Shown: positions 48,795 through 61,535 of the stretch, piece by piece
Layout: every line of letters starts with the position of its first letter
Numbering within the stretch: the stretch's first letter is position 1
DNA from: Rhexocercosporidium sp. MPI-PUGE-AT-0058
Taxonomy: Eukaryota; Ascomycota; Leotiomycetes; Helotiales
Reading direction: 5' to 3'
Assembly (NCBI GenBank): GCA_020746875.1
Contig: JAGTJL010000007.1
Span: forward strand, 372,001 to 436,000
Length of the DNA stretch: 64,000 nt
Notes under the pieces: generated by a model
Database searches by the model: none
What the model was told of the DNA's origin: nothing
Seen by the model: only the letters and a program-made list of their open reading frames with translations
Made by a program: the position numbers and the translations under genes

Positions 48795-49663
48795 GATGGT
48801 TGACCAGAAGAAAGCAAAAGATACAAAGAAATGTCTGAATAAACAACACGAAGCCTTCAACAAGAGGCACTCGGCCGGTTTATATCTCTCGCTCTATTGC
48901 TCGTACCTTTCCCCTTCCACTTCCGCTTTTCCTTCCCCAGAATACCAAAACATCGAAAGAGTGGGGTAAAGGGGCGGGAAACTCGCGCCGCCTTCCTTCT
49001 TGCTGACATGTGGGGAGATGATCGTCAAGATCCATAATTCTTGGCATGAGTCAAAACCCGAGATTCTGCCGTCGTTTAACTTCTGTTATGATTGTCCTTG
49101 TGATGTCGAATTTCGCCTTCGTAAGCCAGATGAGTAATTCCATCAAGAGAAATGTCCAATGTGTCATTATCTTTGCACTGTTTACGAGTCCATCCGCATA
49201 TAAGCGAGCTAGCAAATCGAGAAAGGATAGAAACACTGACAAAGAAGACCCATCTAGACCCAACCTTCCCATATTTAGTCAAGCGGCGGCTCGTCCCGCC
49301 TCGGATTCAAAGCGAGGCAACCAATCAGAAAATGCATGACGCACTTGACCAAATAGCGCTCGCCGAAGCCTAGAACCAAAAATTCAATTTCATCCAACAG
49401 GAACATTTTTATCCCGCCTCTTCTGCAGTTCCACGCAGTCACACCGCAACACAAGGGTAATTACCATATACTTGTGGACGCTCTCAAATTGAAGATCCAT
49501 GCCTCTTCAACTAGATTTTAACAGGCGTGCTCCGGATCTTCCAACTCTTTATTGCCTCAGCTAATAGTTAGCTTTCTAGTTATTTTAACGTCAAATTTTT
49601 TCCCCGCCTCCACCCCACATCGACAATTATATTGTACAGTACCTGTCTGCATTTCGCACTGCC
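48795..49663. other. Divergent promoter region between two MFS genes
   Basis: The two transporters are transcribed away from each other across about 0.87 kb. No further gene was recognised. Confidence 0.5.
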
Positions 49664-51100
49664 ATGGCGGCAACAGATTACTCTAATGAGCCATGGGGCT
49701 TGAAATGGCGCTCCAATACGCTATTCATCCTCGGCACCGTCGCAATTGGCATGTTCACTGACCTCTTCCTCTACGGGCTCGTCGTGCCCATCCTCCCATT
49801 CATCCTCGTCGACCGCATCCAAATCCCCAACGACCAAGTCCAGTACTACACCTCCCTCCTACTGGCATGCTACGCCGGCTCACAAGTCCTCTTCTCACTG
49901 GTGGCGGGCATCATCGCAGATAAGCTGCCGTCTCGACAACCTCCCTTCCTCGTTGGCCTCGCGGCTCTGTTTGGCAGCACGGCGATGTTATTCTTGGGAA
50001 CAAAAATATGGGTTCTAGTGCTCGCGCGCGTACTGCAGGGGATCAGCGCATCGGTGGTCTGGACAATTGGGCTAGCTATGGTTATGGACACAGTAGGGAG
50101 CAGCAAACTGGGCGTTACAATTGGGAGTATATTCAGTTTCATCACGGTGGGCGAATTGATCGCTCCAGTTTTCGGAGGATTGGTGTATAAGAAAGCTGGC
50201 TCTGGTGCTGTGTTTGGCACAGCTTTCGCGCTGCTGGTCGTCGATTTCCTCATGCGCTTGGTGGTCATTGAGAAGAAAGTCGCCACGAAATATGGCGTTG
50301 ATTACTCCACCGAAAGCGAGGATAGCGATTCCGAAGCAGGCGAAACGTCGCCCCTTCTTTCAAACGGAAACACAAAGGAAGAAGAGCTCGCGAAATGGAA
50401 GATACCTAAAGAACAACCGGCGTGGATCAAGAGATTTCCCATCCTGTATTGCATGGGCAACTCGCGGCTCCTAGTCTCCCTACTTGTGGCTTTCACGCAA
50501 GCTACACTTCTCGCAGTCTTTGACGCTACGATCGTGATCCAATCTAGGGATCTATTTGGATTTGACTCGTTGAAAGCAGGGTTGCTTTTCATCCCGCTCA
50601 TCCTCCCACCTCTCGTCATCGGCCCCATCGCAGGACGAGGCGTTGACAAATACGGCGCGAGGATATTCGCTACTCTAGGCCTAGCATACCTCGCTCTCCC
50701 GCTCGTTCTCCTACGAATTCCACACGCAGGTGGCTCGGCGGAGATAGTGAAGATGGCCAGTTTCCTTGGCATGTGCGGGCTAGGTCTTGCTACGATCTCA
50801 TCGCCTAGCATCGTCGAGGGAAGCTATGTCGTCGAGCAGTTCCATACTGCGAATGAGGATTTGTTCGGTGAGAATGGTCCTTATGGACAGTTTTATGCGG
50901 TGAGCAGTATGGTGTTCAGTGCGGGCTTGACTTGTGGTCCTCTCATTTCGGGGGCGTTGAGGGAGAGGGTTGGGTACGGGAATATGAATGCTGTTATGGG
51001 TGGGATGTGTGTGATTGTGAGTGTGTTGAGTTGGATGTATCTAGGGAGGATACCGAAGACTGTGAAGAGGGATAGAAGTGGTTGTTCGACTCCTAGGTAG
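49664..51100 (+). CDS. MFS transporter, vesicular-amine/multidrug (DHA1) type
   Basis: Single-exon 478-residue major facilitator protein, probably a proton-driven exporter. Twelve hydrophobic spans can be followed. Conserved parts are FTDLFLYGLVVPILPFIL in span 1, GIIADKLPSRQPPFLVGLA (motif A loop), LARVLQGISASVVWTIGLAM (span 4 motif B) and GSIFSFITVGELIAPVFGGL (motif C, antiporter-type). A central acidic loop (about 210-265, ESEDSDSEAGE) separates the halves. The second half includes GPIAGRGVDKYGAR and FYAVSSMVFSAGLTCGPLISG. This arrangement is like VMAT-related fungal DHA1 transporters. The substrate is not predictable from sequence, and no biosynthetic genes sit beside it. Confidence 0.9.
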   Translation: MAATDYSNEPWGLKWRSNTLFILGTVAIGMFTDLFLYGLVVPILPFILVDRIQIPNDQVQYYTSLLLACYAGSQVLFSLVAGIIADKLPSRQPPFLVGLAALFGSTAMLFLGTKIWVLVLARVLQGISASVVWTIGLAMVMDTVGSSKLGVTIGSIFSFITVGELIAPVFGGLVYKKAGSGAVFGTAFALLVVDFLMRLVVIEKKVATKYGVDYSTESEDSDSEAGETSPLLSNGNTKEEELAKWKIPKEQPAWIKRFPILYCMGNSRLLVSLLVAFTQATLLAVFDATIVIQSRDLFGFDSLKAGLLFIPLILPPLVIGPIAGRGVDKYGARIFATLGLAYLALPLVLLRIPHAGGSAEIVKMASFLGMCGLGLATISSPSIVEGSYVVEQFHTANEDLFGENGPYGQFYAVSSMVFSAGLTCGPLISGALRERVGYGNMNAVMGGMCVIVSVLSWMYLGRIPKTVKRDRSGCSTPR

Positions 51101-52743
51101 ATTGGATAGCTAGAATTAATGTTTATTGTTTGAAAGAACTGTTGTCTGTGTGATAGGTAGCCATGAGTACGTGAGTGTCGGCTTGCCTCGTTGGGCTTCT
51201 TGCATTTCTTCAATCTCATTTGAAAGTGAATACAAGCTAAGAGGCTCATGGCATTAGCTGATGATTAGTTCGATTTTCGTAGAATGAGACAAGTCTGCCT
51301 TAGACCCATCGACAAAAGGAAACAGATGGCATTGTCACTTCGTCAAGCATTCAACATTCTCACAGCATGAGCTCATGGGTTGGGTGTCGAGTTAAGGAAG
51401 CAGTGCTGTATTGCAGCGACCTCGATTTCCTATCCAGACTACAGCTCCCTCACTTCCAAGAATCAGCCTACTTTTTCCGTTATGCGGAAAAACACCTCGT
51501 TCGAATATAACCGAATTTGGAAATTGATCTCATTTTTGTCGCCTATCATTTCATCGTCATTTACTCGACATTAAGCATTCCTCGCATTCTCTGGCGTTGC
51601 ATTCAGATTTTACTCAAAATACCCAGCACCTACTGTATTAGAAGCGAATCCTGTGATACAACGAATAGATGTGTCCCTACCTAACTTACTAGTGTGTAGG
51701 TAACTTCAAAAGTGAGGTCTCTCCCGTAATGCTTTCTCTGTATTTGAGTTGTGCTGGAAGGTCAACTGAGTGTATTGCGTTTTGTAGCTTCGCAGGATGG
51801 GAATCGGCAAAGCAGCTAGTGGGTCCATATTCACATAACTCCTTGAAGAAATCTCATCCTCTCTTAGAAATAATTAGTGTCACTCCTGGCTAGGACGACT
51901 TCAAGAGCCAGGGTGCAAGCGACGGTACGTAAACAGGCGTCCCATCTCATTCAAACTTTGCAAGTGTCGCACCCAAGCATCACCCAGGAGCCTGAGACGT
52001 TTTGGAGGAGAGTCACGCTGTAGGAATTATTCCTTCTCCACAACACTTCACGGTTTGATGTACGGAAGTAACCAAGTATTGCACTGTAAGAGCTTGAAAA
52101 CTTTGGAGTATGATTTTGGTATTTGAAATTTTGCTTTCCAAGTGACAACAAACGCAAATGACAGTCACAATTCTTATGACAATGCATCTTCTCAACTGAC
52201 ACCTGACATCGTACATTCTGAGATCCTTGAACTACGTTTCGTTCAGATTGCGTAGATTAAGCTTTGCTTGAGCCCAACTTGCCGTGATAAGGGATTAGAT
52301 TCCTTGCATCCTGCACAAGAGATTCTTTCTCTAAGTATGTTGAACCTGAATAACAGTGATACAGCTTATGATAGCGAAAATCCTCACAGGTCTCCCTCAT
52401 ATGAGAAGCGGGAGATTCGGGGTGGAGATGGCAGGATCGTGCAACAATGCAGTTAAACACAATAATTTTGCCAATTCCGTGGCCACTGGGAATGACCACA
52501 GCTCCATCTATTTCCTGAATCTGGGCTTGGGGTCTAGTGAGTTGTAGAAGCGGGATTGTGGGATTCTATCTACATGGTATGAATGATGTGGAGGAATCCT
52601 TTGTCCCTGAAGCGAAGCGAAAGTCAATAATACTGTACTCTTGGCGACACTTGATCCTTTCTCGACGGTTCCGAGAGTGAGGTACCTGACAACATCTAGC
52701 CCACACTGAAGCAAAATCACTCGCAACCTATCTGCCGCGATGC
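51101..52743. other. Convergent intergenic region, about 1.6 kb
   Basis: Between the MFS gene and the RING2 array. Only short frames without motifs were seen. Confidence 0.45.
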
Positions 52744-53510
52744 TCATCTCCGTAAAACCATAATCCTCTCCGCCCGCTCAATTCTCATCCTCTCCTCCCG
52801 TTGTACCCTCTCCAAAATCTCCACTCTCCTCTCCCTAAACTGTTGCTCCATCGTCTCTATCTGACTCCTCATCCGATGATTCCCAGCATACCCCTCATAC
52901 TGACATGGGGGGGAGTTCCTGCTATTACTGGTGCTAGTGCTGGGGTTTGCAAAACCGGGTAAGCGCCGTCCGGTGAATTGGAAGCTGGGATTGGCTGCGT
53001 TTTGGGGATGCAAGGCACAGGTCGGGAGGTGGAAGGCTTGGAAGATGCTTTGTTCCCAGGTGACGAGGCAGAGCCAGCAGAAGGAGTGGCCGCAGAGGCC
53101 TGTTGGTTTTATATTAATATCGATGACAGATCAGACATATTTCGAGAAGCTGCAAGGCTATGGTGAGGTGATGCGCATCTACACTTACAAGTCATGTGGT
53201 TACACCCCTCTACTTTCTCCATAGCCCACAAACAGCTCGGACACGTCTTTGTATTCTCCCTGATGTAGCGCTCCGATGCTAATTCTTCCTCTCTCTGGCG
53301 CGTTTTCCGTGCTTGTATTTCTTCAGAGGATTCGGTAACATCGACAGCTGGGAGGGGTGTGTATTCTGGTGGAGGATCGTCGGGAGCCAAATCTTGAGGA
53401 GGTGATTGAAGTTGTACCTGGGGTGATACTTGATGTGGTCGTTGAGCTAGAGTTGGTATTGGACGCTGTGAGCGGAAGATCTTGGGACGTAAGAAGCAGG
53501 GCATGAACAT
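52744..53510 (-). CDS. RING2-only (half-RBR) zinc-finger protein, copy 1
   Basis: Exons 53510-53189 and 53099-52744 join in phase to 225 residues. A Pro/Gln-rich N-terminus leads to a charged helix (about 63-88, EEIQARKTRQREEELASERY). Directly after it comes TKTCPSCLWAMEKVEGCNHM, followed across the splice by TCLCGHSFCWLCLVTWEQ, a close match to RING2 of ARI/Parkin-type RBR ubiquitin ligases. The Cys of EGCNHM sits where RBR enzymes carry the ubiquitin-accepting cysteine. PTCALHPQN supplies the last C-x2-H pair. The C-terminal 70 residues are again charged and helical. There is no RING1 or IBR upstream, so E2 binding would need another partner. The intron splits the Cys codon after HMT in phase 1, as in copies 2 and 3. 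Confidence 0.82.
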
Positions 53511-53766
53511 CGTCTTGGCGATTGAGTGTTAGAATTATGAGCATATTTCACGAATCGGGAAAAAGAAGGGACAAAAAGCACGAGGAGAAGAATGTGGTCT
53601 ATTACGGTGAGTTATTTGCACTTATTCACACTACAATGTCATGGGCATACGAGTCTGTGGGTCTGCCCTGGAGAAAGCTGGTCGACTAGAAGAAGCCTCG
53701 CTAAGCTAGAAGCCAGTCTACTTACTTCCTCTAGAAATCGACTGCGTTAAGCCAAATGTCCTACCC

Positions 53767-54273
53767 TCAACTAGACGGGGCACACTTAATCTCAAAATTC
53801 GGCGTCTTGAGAGATTCCCTTATCATCTGTTCCTCCCTCGCTTTCTCCTGTAGTGTGATATAGAATTGTGGATGCATAATGCAAGTGGTTGCGTGTTGGT
53901 TCCAGGGCTTGACACAACCGTAGCAGAAGAGCTCTCCACAACGACCTACTCAAAGTCAGAGATAATCAATCGTAGGATGGTGGAAGAATACAAATGATAA
54001 AGTAGAAAGTGAGGTTGTTGATAGGATTTACTCACAGTGTATCTGGTTGCATCCTCCGTATCTCTGCACACCCGCTTGGCAACGAGGGCATCGCTTAACA
54101 TGCTGAGAGAGGTAAGCTTTGGACGCAGCTTCCTCTTTCTTGAGTCTCGCTGCTGTTTTACTGTCGGTATTGTAAAGTGTGGGAGCTGCTGGGATGGTCT
54201 TAGATTTGGAGTTAATATGAGGGTGTGCTTTTTCACCGCCCTGGAACAGATTGGAGAATGGATTGCAGGGCAT
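53767..54273 (-). CDS. RING2-only (half-RBR) zinc-finger protein, copy 2
   Basis: Exons 54273-54036 and 53945-53767 join in phase to 138 residues. After about 45 polar residues comes a helix, TAARLKKEEAASKAYLSQHV, then KRCPRCQAGVQRYGGCNQIH and, across the splice, CRCGELFCYGCVKPWNQH, with the tail TTCIMHPQF. The ligand spacing and the GGC motif equal those of copy 1, and the intron interrupts the same cysteine codon in the same phase. The C-terminal helix (LQEKAREEQMIRESLK) is shorter than in copy 1. Gene order and direction are the same, about 250 bp upstream of copy 1. The function is inferred only: possibly ubiquitin transfer or a dominant-negative decoy. Confidence 0.8.
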
Positions 54274-54664
54274 GGTGACTTTCGCTGATGGAAATGATGT
54301 GGTGATGTGAAGTGCTGAATATAGTAAGAGTGAACATGATGGATTTTTCTGGTGGTCGTCAATGAGATTGAAGCTGGCATTTGAAGTGACTTTATTCTAG
54401 TTAAGTAGTCCTCTGTGGGTGCTGTGAAAATTTAGCGAGAAATCGGACTTAGACCCCCTTCTAGCCGTGTGTGAGCCTGGTAGCGAATATTCCGGTTCTA
54501 TAATGTGACGGCCTTTTCTGGTCATTTGACAGGCTTCTAGAAGGTTTCCAGAACTAGCCTTGAACTAGCCCACAAGCTAAAGCTCGTCGGTTCCATGTTC
54601 TGTTTATAATTTCAAAATTTGGTTGGGCTCTGTGATTTCGTGGGTGACAAAGTCATCGACCCCC

Positions 54665-55193
54665 TCAAGCGATCTCAGGATGCAACAGGCACAGCTCCTC
54701 TTGAGCTTTTACCTCGCCTGCTTTCAATGGAGTATTGCAGACGAAGCAGAAATTCTGTCCACACATACCTATCACAAGTCAGCAAAGTTAATAAATCCGA
54801 CCTCTCGCATTGCCATTGAAAATGCAGTAACTATAGGCAAGTAAACACAAAAGGCGAGGCGGAGACACTTACAAACAACGGCATAGCACCCTCCATCCTC
54901 GACCTCAATCCCGTACCCACAACCAGGACACTACTTAATAACGCTTTCAATATACAACATCGACATATCGACTTCCCACTTCTGCCACTCTAGCCTATCT
55001 TGTCCGTACCCCTCCTTTCAGCTAGTCGCTGTTCCTGTCTGCGTTTCTCTATTTCCGCTTTGCGAGCTTCTCGCGTTCGGTATTTGTGGATTTTGTGCAG
55101 TGCACGAAAAATAAGGCTATAGTCTTTAAAAGCAAATAGATCCCTGAGGGCCTGAGGCTGAAATTGGGGAGACTGAAGGAAGAGGGAGCACAT
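54665..55193 (-). pseudogene. RING2-only zinc-finger gene, copy 3, broken
   Basis: The same layout as copies 1 and 2, but disrupted. An ATG-started frame (MCSLFLQSPQF ... RRQEQRLAERRG) shifts at the GGGG run near 55008-55013. The helix continues in another frame as EWQKWEVDMSMLYIESVIK, followed by an in-frame TAG where a residue before CPGC should stand. Then come CPGCGYGIEVEDGGCYAVV, an intron (GTAAGT...TTGTGATAG) splitting the next Cys codon in phase 1, MCGQNFCFVC, and the tail LCLLHPEIA with a stop. The zinc ligands and the GGC motif are intact, so the damage is recent, or an error in the sequence. A mid-gene intron would remove the TAG, but none gives the right phase. Confidence 0.7.
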
Positions 55194-55882
55194 TGTTCTG
55201 GTTGGGAGGGATGTTTGGGAGTATATGAAGAGGTGTGTGACTTGAGGATTGAAAGGTAAAAGATAGAAGTGAAGCATGTACTGGGATATATTGTCTGGGT
55301 CGCATTGCAAAGGTAGAAGAAGATCAACGAAGATGCTGAAGATACAGGCAGGCAGTCCAGGGCTCAGTTTACATCTCAATAACCTGATCACATGAATCGG
55401 TCTACTCGCGAAAATAAGCGAGGTGTATGGTTCTATTATATTGCGGCTACTAGATTGTAGTGCTGAGACAATTCCCTTACTTGCTTACGAAAAAGGGGGC
55501 CTAGAAGAACGCTAGAATATTTGGATGTTGGCACATACCGATATGCCACTTTGTTTGAGAAACCAAGTGTACACTCGCTTAATTTCCCCCTCAAAAACCG
55601 TACTTGCGATGTCACATGCAGAACACAGAAGGAAACAGAATCAAGAAAAGTACTCTAGACTTGTTCAGACAACAACAATAATTACAAGAGTGAGTCGCTA
55701 AATTATAGGAGAGTTGGAGACATACCTCCCTGCTGAAGTCCAACACTTTGCGCAAAGTTCATCTCCTATAAACAAAGTCTATTCCATAGATAACTTCTAC
55801 CATACAGTATTGACACTTCAAGATCGAACTCACAAACAAGTGTGATCTCTCATCTAAGCCCTTGTCCTCCACCACGTAACCC
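55194..55882. other. Intergenic, about 0.7 kb
   Basis: Upstream of the RING2 array and downstream of the MFS gene. No RING1- or IBR-like coding sequence was found here on the minus strand. Confidence 0.5.
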
Positions 55883-57956
55883 TCACAACGAGTACCTAAA
55901 GTACGGATTCTTCAAATCCGTCACATCCTGCTCACCCATCTCCCTCCCCAACCGTTCCATCTCCTCAGCACTAACACCACTCTCCCTCGCCTCCCTTTCC
56001 CTCTTCCTATTCTGCCACATATACCAACCCCTCCACGCACAAATGAGCAAAAACTCCATCCCTAAACAGATACTCGCACCAATCGTGCCAGGAATGTACT
56101 GCGGCGCGTCTTCAGTCCTGAAGATCTGGCTGCCGCACATGTTGCCGACGCAGTAGCCGAGGAAGGTCGAGGAGGAGATGATGGTCTTCTTGGTGCGGCC
56201 CGAGATGTTGGAAGGGATTAGGGTCCAGGCTAGGAAGAGGGAGAGGACCGTGGGGACTGTCATGAAGTAAAGGCCCCATTTTGTCCATTTGAGGTGGGGG
56301 GACGAGGGGAGGAGGGAGAGCGAGAGGAGCCCAATGAACGGGGGCAGACAAGCGAGTGCCATGATATACATGCGTCTGTTGGGGACTTTTCGGGTGTAGA
56401 AACCGACGATTACGAAGAGGATTAGGGACATGACTATGCTCGTTAGCCGAGGACTTAAGTTTGGGAGGTTGATAAATAGAAGCCTACCTGATCGCGGGAT
56501 TCCAACAAGAAGAACTTGAAGCTGGGTGAAGCCAAATGACTTATACATCAACGACCCAAATGTTGTGATGCCACTTCGAATGTCAATTAGCAAATATAAT
56601 TGCATTGGCAGGGAGTGAAAACATACCCATTAGGAACAGAGCTCAAGAAAGCGTTGAGCGTTGAGAAGTACAGAACAGGATCCTTCAAAGCCTCAGTGAC
56701 CTGATCCCAGTTCCATTTCGTGCCCGTAACATCACGTCCAGCTTTGTTACCGAGAATTCTCGCGGCACTGTAAACGCACCAGCCAGTCAGTCAGTCCATC
56801 CGCTCAACAGAATAGTGCTAGTGGGATCGTGGAGCACATACGCCATACGCTTCTCATCCTTATTCATCCACCTAACCTCCTTCGGGCTCCCTAGTAAAGC
56901 AAAACACACCAAAGCCGCCACAATAGTCGACGCACCCAAGAACAGCGAGATACATCTCCAAGCCGCAATACCGCCGTACTTCTGAGCATGCGTTCCAATA
57001 CCGTACATGACTAGGTCAGCAATGACGCCGAAACCAGCGTTTGCGGATTGGAAGAAGAGCGAGCGTGAGCTGTGCTCTTCTGTGCGATACCAGGTGCCGA
57101 TGACGAGAATGAAGCCTGGCGAAATGGTGCATTCGAAGAAGCCTTGGAGGGTGCGGAGGACCATGAGATGAGTCCAGTTCTGGGCGGCGGAGATGCAGAT
57201 TACGCAGATTCCTGAAAGGGTGGTTATTATGGGCTGGAGGGTTGTGGATTAGGATAGGAGACGCACCCCAGCATAGCATGTAGATACTTAGAGTTCGGCC
57301 AAGAGCCCAGCGTTGGAGGAGGAAGTTAGAGGGTAATTCTCCGCAGAGGTAGGCGATGTAGAACCTAGCCGCCGAGACGGTCAATATATATCCTAATCAC
57401 GGTCTTTCTGAAAGCAAATGCTACTTACATGGTAGTCAACCACTGGTACTGCTGACCCAAAAGACCTGTGTCCTCTCGAATACCGAAGAGCTGTAAAGAT
57501 TATCATGGATGAAGACCAGCGAGAAAGATATGTGCCTACTGCTTGAGTTCCCAGGGACACCTTATCAGTTTGTTGGATACCATAGCAAACCCACCTAGCT
57601 TATCAGGCAAGACTCATAATCATTGGCAGGTGCTTGGACGTACATGAGTGGCAGGAGATATCTATCAATCTTCTTGAGTAGTTTCTTGTAGTCTTCTGGG
57701 GTGTAATCTTGGTGGTACATCAGCAAGAGCACATCACCAAGATACTTCCAGTGTCTAGAATTGAAGTACGGTTGTATCATAGAACTGAGCACATACCACT
57801 CTCTCTGATCTCATCTCCCTCTTCAACAATGACAACATCGACATCTCCATCGGAAGAACTCTTGTCATTCTTCTCATCGATTGGGTACTTCTCATCAAGA
57901 GATGGCTGTTCCGACCGAATGGCCGCCGTCACGCCATGATTATTCGTAGTAGTCAT
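55883..57956 (-). CDS. MFS transporter of the allantoate/anion permease family (Dal5-like)
   Basis: Plasma-membrane proton symporter family for small organic anions and vitamins (Dal5, Tna1, Vht1 relatives). Exons 57754-57644, 57594-57540, 57490-57429, 57364-57267, 57211-56842, 56767-56627, 56573-56488 and 56433-55883 are all phase-consistent. They read KIDRYLLPLMWVCYGIQQTDK, LFGIREDTGLLGQQYQWLTT, FYIAYLCGELPSNFLLQRWA, LRTLQGFFECTISPGF and GWYMWQNRKREREA. An upstream exon, 57956-57797 (MTTTNNHGVTAAIRSEQPSL, acidic), ends at a good GTATGT donor but joins one base out of phase. An ATG at 57780 is in frame and would give 499 residues. So the start is uncertain, or the gene carries a one-base defect. 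Confidence 0.85.
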
Positions 57957-58691: not shown

Positions 58692-61001
58692 TCAAGAACT
58701 AGTCGATGGCCGACTCGCATTCCTATCTGCTGCTATTCGTGCATCTACCCTTTCTCTGTGTTGACGATTCTTCAAATGTACCTCGAAATTTCCTACTGTT
58801 GTTTCTGGGCCTGGTGTGTAAAGTTTCCCTGGACAGTCGTGACACCTTATTCGTGGGAGATACATCCACTTCACTCCATCGGGTGTTTGGCCTGGTGGAG
58901 GCGCGGGGCAAGGCATTTCAGTAGCCGAGTTGACGGCCGAGTACCGCATTACACCTTCAAATCGATCACCGGGGTATTGGGTGAGAAGTGAGTTAAGGCC
59001 CGCTGTAAGCCAAGTTGGAGGCGGAGGCTGAAAATTGTTAGTATGTGACCGAGGATAGGATTTCGGAATCGCTTTCTTGGGGCTTTTGTCACTTATAATA
59101 GCATTCACTTGAGGGTATTTCAAAATAGAAAGCTCTTGAGAAACGGACACACGAATCAAATATTGACTTACAGGAACGTGAGGAGGCTGCCCTGGTGGTG
59201 GAGGAGGCGGTGCATCGACTCGGCCGATTTGCCCAACTGGAGCCGGAGTCGTTGAAGTTTGCAACGTCTGACTTTGGGTATTAGGTGTCGAAGGTGGTCC
59301 CATCGAGCCTTGTGGAACTACAGCAGCAGGGGCTGCTGGAGTTGAAGGGGCTGCTGGAGTGCGGGCGGCGGGTTCAGGTGGTTGCGAATTCGAAGGACGA
59401 CTTGAAGCTCGAGTGATCTCTCGATGGAACTTTCTCATCCGTTCCCGTCCAGGTTTGAGCTTCACAATCAATGACGGAGGTTCACTCTCGTCGCGAGCAT
59501 CACGACCACCGAATCTTCGGGCCGAGGTTCTCGTTTCGTGATGGTGGAGGACAGCAGCTTCCGGTGTTTCTGATCTTCCAAGATTGGCCATTCTCTGTTG
59601 GGCAGCGGTGGCAGCTCCTCGCATATTTCTCGTCCTTGCAGTTCCACTTTGTAGATTTGCCAGGGCAGGAGACTCGGGGTTTGAATCTTCACTCTCCGAT
59701 TCTTCAGAAAGGTCTCCATCTCGAGCACCAGGACGCTTCGCTTTTCCTCCAACACCTCCAACTCTTTTATACAACCGACTATCCTCGACTTTTTCAGCTG
59801 ATCCTGGAATGACTGAAGAGACCACCAATGTGCGCACAGTCCGTTGCCTATCCTTCAAGTCCGGTAATGTCGGTCCGCCTCTTCTATTTACGGAGCGCTT
59901 TTGCCTCCTCTGCTCTCTCGAATATATTACCTCCCCGCGCTCCAAGTCTGCTTCCGTCAATTCGTACAAGAAAGGCGTGTATTCACGCGCCTGCTGCTGA
60001 GGACGGAAGACCGAAGGTAATGGAGATGGTAGAAATCCAGCAATCAAATCCGCATCTTCCAAGGGTCGCCCGTCGAACGGATGTCCTACAATATACAAAC
60101 TCCTTGTGAACAACTGGCACTGCTCCCGTATTGAATGTGCAATCGCGGTCGTAAATTCTCCAGCTAACGACAATTCCCGAGCCAAACTTTGCGCAAACTC
60201 CTCGGGTGAGTTCAGGGGGTTGTTGATCTCCCATTCAAATTTATCCTCCAAAGTATGCGGCCCAATGGTTATATTTAGCTTGATCAGAATTCGCATCTCT
60301 TCGTTCTTGTAAGCCGAGTATGGCAATTCTGGATCCAACGCTTCCTCTCCAGCATATAATTGTGGATAGAAATCCATCAATTGTTCGCGCAACTGGTGCT
60401 GAACTTGCTCCAGAACCGGAGCGTGGGCAGGAGGTGTCAATCCAAAATCCTCAACCATCTGTGCAGCAAAAATCTCAGGGCTTATGATCCGATCGAAGTA
60501 GTTCCAGGTAAATGTATCGCGAAGTTTTATCTTATCCCAGTCAATTTCTAGCCGGATAGGGACCAATTCTTCGTCCTGTTCTGCCTGCGTTGCCACATCT
60601 TTGCGCTTCAGTCGCAACTTTGGAGCCTTTCTATGTCCCAACCTTGGCTTTGCGTGCGGATAGAGCACATGCGCTGGACCATCGGTCCTCCCATTTCCAT
60701 AGCCACCGTAGCCAGGGCCGTAGAGTCGACTCGAGGTGAAGTATTGTCGGTACTCCTCGCGAACCTTTCTGTAATCCTCGACCTGCTGGTTCATGAAACC
60801 ATAAGACTTCTCCCGGTGTTCCTGTGTATCAAGGATAGCTGCCGAGTGTAACAAATCACGATGAATGTGGCTTTCGAGGAGGATCTTTTGGAAGTCTGAT
60901 TTTGTTCGAGGCCGATGGGTCAGAGGAGAAGAAGGGGGTGAAGGAGCGTCGACGGCATCAGAAGCCTGGGGGTCTGAGGATGGCTGAGGATCGGGAGCCA
61001 T
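58692..61001 (-). CDS. SNF5: SNF5/SMARCB1 core subunit of the SWI/SNF (or RSC) chromatin remodeller
   Basis: Core subunit that contacts the nucleosome acidic patch; nuclear. Exons 61001-59172 and 59027-58692 give 721 residues. The 144-bp intron is in frame but has GTAAGT and TTTTCAG ends and reads unlike protein. The SNF5 domain (about 145-345) shows both repeats: VPIRLEIDWDKIKLRDTFTW with PEIFAAQMVEDF, and ILIKLNITIGPHTLEDKFEW with PEEFAQSLARELSL. A basic Ser/Pro-rich region follows. The C-terminus carries a GATA-like finger, YLPRIRCHDCPGKLYTPGP, typical of Pezizomycotina SNF5. MAPDPQP is preferred as start; an in-frame ATG at 61211 would add 70 residues of presequence-like character. Sfh1 is the alternative paralogue. 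Confidence 0.9.
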   Translation of the reverse strand: MAPDPQPSSDPQASDAVDAPSPPSSPLTHRPRTKSDFQKILLESHIHRDLLHSAAILDTQEHREKSYGFMNQQVEDYRKVREEYRQYFTSSRLYGPGYGGYGNGRTDGPAHVLYPHAKPRLGHRKAPKLRLKRKDVATQAEQDEELVPIRLEIDWDKIKLRDTFTWNYFDRIISPEIFAAQMVEDFGLTPPAHAPVLEQVQHQLREQLMDFYPQLYAGEEALDPELPYSAYKNEEMRILIKLNITIGPHTLEDKFEWEINNPLNSPEEFAQSLARELSLAGEFTTAIAHSIREQCQLFTRSLYIVGHPFDGRPLEDADLIAGFLPSPLPSVFRPQQQAREYTPFLYELTEADLERGEVIYSREQRRQKRSVNRRGGPTLPDLKDRQRTVRTLVVSSVIPGSAEKVEDSRLYKRVGGVGGKAKRPGARDGDLSEESESEDSNPESPALANLQSGTARTRNMRGAATAAQQRMANLGRSETPEAAVLHHHETRTSARRFGGRDARDESEPPSLIVKLKPGRERMRKFHREITRASSRPSNSQPPEPAARTPAAPSTPAAPAAVVPQGSMGPPSTPNTQSQTLQTSTTPAPVGQIGRVDAPPPPPPGQPPHVPVSQYLIRVSVSQELSILKYPQVNAIISDKSPKKAIPKSYPRSHTNNFQPPPPTWLTAGLNSLLTQYPGDRFEGVMRYSAVNSATEMPCPAPPPGQTPDGVKWMYLPRIRCHDCPGKLYTPGPETTVGNFEVHLKNRQHRERVDARIAADRNASRPSTSS

Positions 61002-61535
61002 GGCGAATGCATTCGCGACGGCTATGCGACGCTGTTGACGTGTGGGTAGAGCAGTCCTGAGGACTGTAGATTTGGAGATGCACGAGATTAGAGTTGAGTG
61101 AAGCGCGATTGATGGGGATTTGAGCGACCGCGTCAACAGACAGAGAGGCTGGCTGGACTGGGCGCTGGGCACTGGACACCGTGCGCAGAAAAGGCCTTGA
61201 CCACGTGACATAATCAACAGCCCCCTGCACCACCCACTCGAGCCACTCCCACTCCTACTCGAACCACCCCTGCTCCCACTCCCCAAAGGCGGGAAGGGCG
61301 GGAGGGAGAAGCGAAGCTCAGCTCAAGGCGGCCCAGCGAGTCAAACGAGTCTGAGCTGCCGCCAGGGACTGGACTGGACATCCATCCATCCATCTTCCAT
61401 GCTTCGCCTCGCTAAACCCATCTTGCCCACAGTCTAACCCCTCCTTTTCCAAACAATCTACCACTTCTCACGCTCCTTCATTCATTCACGAACCCCCTTT
61501 TCAAACACAAACCGACTTACTGAAATACCTTCATC
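61002..61535. other. Divergent promoter region SNF5 / EBP1-like gene
   Basis: About 0.5 kb between divergent genes. It includes GGGAGTGGGAGTGG-type runs near 61240-61290 and CCATCCATCCATC at about 61380-61392. No other gene is supported. Confidence 0.5.

Follow-up and report, generated by a model that had tools for sequence, protein, structure and literature searches.

Positions 52744-55193 of the 64,000-nucleotide stretch of Rhexocercosporidium sp. MPI-PUGE-AT-0058 analyzed here (the window) carry, on the minus strand, three copies of one RING2-type (Rcat) finger, the finger of the C-terminal catalytic end of RING-between-RING (RBR) ubiquitin ligases, in genes that we designate C, B, and A (table 1). 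The fingers of all three score above the curated cut-off of the Pfam IBR family (1.3e-7 for gene B and 1.4e-6 for the finger of gene A), and C and B also match IBR_1 (5.2e-10 for gene C), indicating that the finger matches are more than chance. The initial annotation had described three minus-strand genes at this locus; the three finger copies are indeed present, but they are not equal. Genes C and B are intact two-exon genes with a single finger apiece, with a Gln in B at the place of the His that follows the catalytic-type Cys at +2. Gene A is broken: A TAG stands immediately upstream of its CPGC, and its ATG-led frame stops at 54990, out of the frame of the finger. Splicing offers no convincing rescue, as the sole GT-AG single-intron path from the ATG to the finger uses a poor donor (GTCTCC) and loses the helix, and of 13 GC-AG combinations the 12 listed all end the intron at 54931, excising the stretch directly before the finger. 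Judged from its sequence, gene A is dead.

A fourth gene of this kind, D, was found on another contig than the array, and the C and D types have orthologs in other genera: P0002 (Leptodontidium) and P0004 (Cadophora sp. DSE1049) for C, P0005 (Leptodontidium) and P0006 (Cadophora sp. M221) for D. Across these proteins the finger can be defined more closely than by the CPxC-x10-GxC pattern that had been proposed. The CPxC and the catalytic-type Cys stand, but the spacing is CPxC-x8-GC in C and B and CPxC-x9-GC in A, with the Gly immediately preceding the Cys; in gene C the first half of the finger consists of C90, C93, the extra C103, and then C108, whose codon is split by the intron. A C-x2-H-P tail is found in A, B, and C as described, yet it is not the conserved zinc pair, which is H-x3-C in C, B, D, and the four orthologs; gene A is without its His. 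Eight further Cys and His residues are available for two predicted zinc sites in C, B, D, P0002, P0004, P0005, and P0006, leaving the catalytic-type Cys over, so that the concern that this Cys might itself be a zinc ligand is not borne out by the alignment, the one means by which it was checked. The Cys is invariant in a 27-row alignment and in all nine rows of a second one. A His two residues after the catalytic Cys, looked for as a possible feature of RING2/Rcat fingers, is kept in C, P0002, P0004, D, P0005, and P0006, and replaced by Gln in B and Ala in A.

The claim that neither RING1 nor IBR accompanies these fingers held up. A splice-aware motif scan of 52001-56000 found the three RING2 fingers only, and the RING1 pattern, sought in the same interval in spliced and unspliced sequence, matched nothing besides gene C's own RING2 finger. 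We also compared 45 Cys-rich segments from 17 RBR-type loci with the whole window by tblastn: 36 matches fell inside 52744-55193 and 24 outside, and the best 15 of these 24 were proline-rich or charged stretches only, with no RING1 or IBR. In all four genes (A, B, C, and D) the stretch that matches Pfam IBR is the RING2 finger itself, one finger per protein, and no RING family scores above its Pfam cut-off in B, C, or D. A RING1 or IBR exon near the array was rejected on the motif scan together with the tblastn search; the suspicion that the fingers are exons of one larger RING1/IBR gene thus found nothing in its favor in the window, and the C-type orthologs are annotated separately, as proteins of 193 and 238 residues. 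Exon-wise Pfam searches of the genome gave nothing on this contig, but as they also missed A, B, and C, this is weak evidence of absence. An NCBIfam scan returned nothing useful.

When B and C are used in sequence searches, they match the RING2 of ARIH1/ARIH2, CUL9, and parkin; the catalytic Cys lines up in the alignments listed (C against ARIH2 and CUL9, B against ARIH1), and gene B reaches 28.7 bits against the RING2 of ARIH1 versus 13.8 against its IBR. This agrees with the initial annotation, which had recognized a stand-alone RING2 with the catalytic-Cys motif and a helix in front. The predicted folds resemble RBR ligase structures, with a helix predicted before the finger. In the model of D this helix (residues 3-38) runs into the finger, the block-mean predicted local distance difference test (pLDDT) score being 89-98 for residues 1-70 and 73 for residues 71-80, and the Foldseek list for this model is headed by RBR ligases, including the RING2-alone structures 2m9y, 9c5e, 9egv, and 2lwr.

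With the numbering of the helix residues fixed against the parkin sequence, equivalents of parkin E404, S407, I/L411, and K416 are present in all seven intact RING2-only proteins (C, P0002, P0004, D, P0005, P0006, and B) and that of T415 in five of them; EAASK in the helix of gene B is identical to parkin 404-408. Helices of full-length RBR proteins of this genome were tabulated for 11 of the 16 such loci, and among these 11 all four guide residues occur only in L036b, the neighbor of D. According to passages of one report (PMC11742612), parkin 404-465, that is, helix and Rcat, is the minimal fragment that reacts with ubiquitin vinyl sulfone, Rcat 413-465 alone being insufficient; a parkin Rcat construct supplied with Ub-MESNa carries out ubiquitination with neither E1 nor E2 present; and E404 and I411 touch ubiquitin in that report's AlphaFold model of the complex. 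The presence of the guide residues in 7/7 proteins, set against a full set in only 1/11 full-length helices, suggests that the piece turned into a gene matches the minimal reactive fragment and is not an arbitrary 3' end. From this correspondence we infer that the fungal modules could accept ubiquitin. Parkin 404-465 is a man-made truncation; it resembles the fungal proteins in consisting of helix and Rcat only, whereas the fungal pieces are separate genes with N- and C-terminal extensions of their own.

The likeness to ARIH1/HHARI, ARIH2, and parkin extends to the CPxC, GC, C, C, CxxC pattern of RING2, the register of the catalytic Cys, the preceding helix, the predicted fold, and the guide-helix residues corresponding to parkin 404-416. 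The fungal RING2-only proteins differ in that no RING1, IBR, Ariadne, or RING0 domain was found in them, in a finger C-x-C as against the C-x2-C or C-x4-C of ARIH and parkin, and in the last zinc pair, H-x3-C as opposed to the C457/H461 reported for parkin.

All three array genes were confirmed to have a phase-1 intron that splits the codon of one and the same Cys, with the codons as first given (ACT T|GC in gene C, CAC T|GT in gene B, GTT T|GT in gene A). The conclusion drawn from it, descent from one ancestor by local duplication, does not follow. This intron also splits the corresponding Cys codon of gene D, whose catalytic-type Cys is Cys55, and of the four full-length RBR genes L033, L035, L036b, and L041 elsewhere in the genome, which differ from the RING2-only genes in having RING1 and IBR; in L044 and L048 an intron adjoins this place in a different phase. 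The intron is therefore no proof of local duplication; it marks descent from an intron-bearing RBR lineage instead. Among 17 other RBR-type loci inspected by eye, 16 have RING1, IBR, and RING2 (L049 is atypical). The remaining locus, L042 (G000 contig C56, 2413969-2414139), is a decayed Ariadne-like IBR fragment with in-frame stops in which no RING2 was seen. A RING2 tree of 21 rows has weak support (18 inner branches, 2 starred and 12 open), and A, B, and L036b are among the rows with long branches; the RING2-only rows lie on one side of a branch (74/89) only if nine unlabeled rows are ignored, so that the tree shows neither a single origin nor the parent gene.

About 0.6 kb separates gene D from the full-length RBR gene L036b, which follows downstream on the same strand. 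L036b, which shares all four guide-helix residues with the RING2-only proteins, has itself a diverged RING2 (CPGPGC). In Cadophora sp. M221, P0006 is a D-like protein (51% identity to D) that continues into the first part of the same RBR (63% identity over 157 residues). This join is either a mis-joined model or a real fusion; in both cases the neighborhood of D and the RBR gene seems to persist in a second genus.

A profile search returned 51 proteins at E<=1; it should be noted that this search needs shared exact words, and the true spread of the family lies beyond its reach. We examined 28 of the 51 matches (20 as sequence, 8 as alignment rows), and structures were predicted from alignments that drew on 27 and 20 of the 51. 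Apart from P0001-P0006, 18 of the 22 examined matches are on contigs below 3 kb or come without contig data and may be truncated, so that these numbers are no measure of how widespread isolated Rcat genes are. Within the C and D types, helix and finger are 65-82% identical and the rest of the protein 40-61%, in all six within-type ortholog pairs. The C and D types are thus shown, at the level of sequence, to be under constraint across three genera, and isolated Rcat genes are kept in at least three (Rhexocercosporidium, Leptodontidium, and Cadophora). Outside the finger, all three C-type proteins (C, P0002, and P0004) carry a PPPxY in register, as DPPPxYTxLP within a poorly conserved proline-rich stretch; no PPxY was found in B or in the D-type proteins. 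Of genes A and B, B served as the protein query of a database search, which gave no ortholog (no matches). B, probably a copy under weak constraint, is doubtful as a module, and on the best reading C and D are the candidates to consider.

With moderate confidence, we read C, B, and D as natural stand-alone guide-helix-Rcat modules, in which the C-terminal catalytic end of an RBR ligase has been copied without RING1 and IBR, with C and D accepting ubiquitin in trans. This proposed stand-alone ubiquitin transfer is the best supported of the readings considered. C and D would take ubiquitin as a thioester from a ubiquitin-charged E2 held by another ligase, and would then hand it to a substrate or to the product of the holder ligase. 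The adjacent RBR L036b is the candidate holder for D; for C it would be an Rsp5-like HECT ligase, recruited via the conserved PPPxY. Recruitment of Rsp5 by adaptors runs through the binding of PPxY motifs to WW domains. The genome contains a piece of an Rsp5-type gene (L071; G000 contig C56, ~1095332-1095892) that combines three WW domains with a HECT domain and is a possible partner for the C-type PPPxY. A parallel exists with the alpha-arrestin (ART) adaptors of Rsp5: The C-type proteins have a PPxY of the kind by which ARTs recruit the Rsp5 WW domains, but C carries an Rcat finger and no arrestin family was found in a Pfam scan of C (E<=1). Literature abstracts describe the recruitment of Rsp5 by fungal adaptors. 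Transfer by an Rcat in trans is plausible on steric grounds: In crystals of HOIP with E2-Ub, PMC5758712 reports RING2 contacts from a neighboring complex, an arrangement believed to be an artefact, and suggests that the relevant unit is made of halves of two molecules, and a passage of PMC6276879 describes a domain-swapped dimer. These arrangements make such transfer sterically plausible without establishing it.

According to a 2014 review, no protein was then known that was obviously an isolated Rcat, which makes conserved isolated Rcat genes notable. The open-access literature searched by title and abstract gave no later report of isolated or RING2-only Rcat proteins, PMC3940038 being the one paper on the subject, and subscription papers were mostly outside that search. 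If the fungal modules are active, the thioester half of an RBR ligase can be a separate protein, and D (153 residues) and C (225 residues) would be small natural models for Rcat chemistry without inhibitory domains. If they are inactive but constrained, they would point to a natural antagonist of RBR ligases or of ubiquitin. The retention of an intact Rcat end in this root-dwelling fungus and its relatives, with the remainder of the ligase absent, suggests that this end can act alone or together with another ligase.

Three further readings were considered. A naturally split RBR ligase, in which free guide-helix-Rcat proteins are exchangeable catalytic subunits acting in trans and form a two-protein E3 whose thioester half is inherited separately, the charged E2 being held for instance by the adjacent RBR for D or by an Rsp5-type HECT ligase docked via PPPxY for C, can be held only tentatively. 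Somewhat unlikely is a role as decoy or regulator, in which the helix and Rcat would bind to ubiquitin, or would vie with the Rcat of full RBR ligases for ubiquitin-charged E2 or for the autoinhibitory surface, and so damp or release these ligases with no need of turnover. The loss of RING1 and IBR fits such a role, as does the retention of the ubiquitin-binding guide helix in 7/7 proteins while B has lost the +2 His, and D adjoins a full RBR; for parkin, an abstract describes competition between RING2 and phospho-Ubl for RING0, and untethered RING2 is displaced from RING0 in a passage of PMC11368401. However, catalytic-type Cys and +2 His are both present in all six C-type and D-type proteins, and they would be superfluous in a pure binding module. 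That these genes are the debris of partial duplication, 3' pieces of RBR genes that landed by promoters and are decaying without stable function, is unlikely: A is broken, B has no detectable ortholog and a long branch, and a decayed Ariadne-like fragment lies elsewhere (C56:2413969), but C-type and D-type orthologs persist in Leptodontidium and Cadophora with constraint centered on helix and finger, and the C-type start region and PPPxY outside the finger are kept as well.

Least probable by far, although compatible with the other readings, is that B and C are one gene for a two-Rcat protein of 353 residues, as in the public model P0001, which splices B into C and holds most of both products: It drops the start of C and splices away the stop codon of B, whereas that start is conserved in Leptodontidium P0002 (MTFMPCFSLLKIFRS vs MFMPCFLRPKIFRS), which argues for C as a separate gene, and partly in Cadophora P0004, both of these being single-finger proteins. 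The fusion was rejected as the likely true model for discarding the conserved C start, and it is probably a gene-model error.

Table 1. Coordinates of the RING2-only genes and their features. Positions refer to the window, except for gene D.
Feature	Position	Strand	Description
Gene C	53510-52744	minus	225-residue guide-helix-Rcat protein; catalytic-type Cys103, His105, PPPEY 46-50, C-terminal helix
Gene C exons	exon 1 53510-53189; phase-1 intron 53188-53100 (89 nucleotides, GTAAGT..CAG); exon 2 53099-52744	minus	
Gene C, guide helix plus first half of the finger	53189-53285	minus	parkin equivalents E404=E76, S407=S79, I411=I83, T415=T87, K416=K88
Gene C PPPEY (residues 46-50)	53361-53375	minus	register matches PPPEY of Leptodontidium P0002 and PPPAY of Cadophora P0004
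Gene B	54273-53767	minus	138-residue guide-helix-Rcat protein; catalytic-type Cys kept, +2 His replaced by Gln
Gene B exons	exon 1 54273-54036; phase-1 intron 54035-53946 (90 nucleotides); exon 2 53945-53767	minus	
Gene A, broken copy	55193-54664	minus	frame opened by the ATG 55193-54990; remnant of the helix ~54981-54934 in a different frame, closed by TAG 54933-54931
Gene A finger	exon 54930-54873; phase-1 intron 54872-54769 (104 nucleotides); second finger exon 54768-54664	minus	
Gene D, fourth RING2-only gene	L036:2557-3065 (G000 contig C2, ~905056-905564)		public model P0003, 153 residues, identical to the predicted splice

The array is flanked on both sides by MFS transporter genes, at 49589-51100 on the plus strand and at 55883-57248 on the minus strand; of the latter, only the piece 56790-57248 matches MFS_1 above the cut-off. 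Ten open reading frames of the window were also scanned, and ordinary conserved genes were recognized among them in 13003-39080 and 58692-61322: ALG6/ALG8, a legume-like lectin, a CAF1 ribonuclease, a PHD finger, mitochondrial ribosomal L46, an FAD oxidoreductase, WSD and DDT/WAC chromatin proteins, and SNF5.
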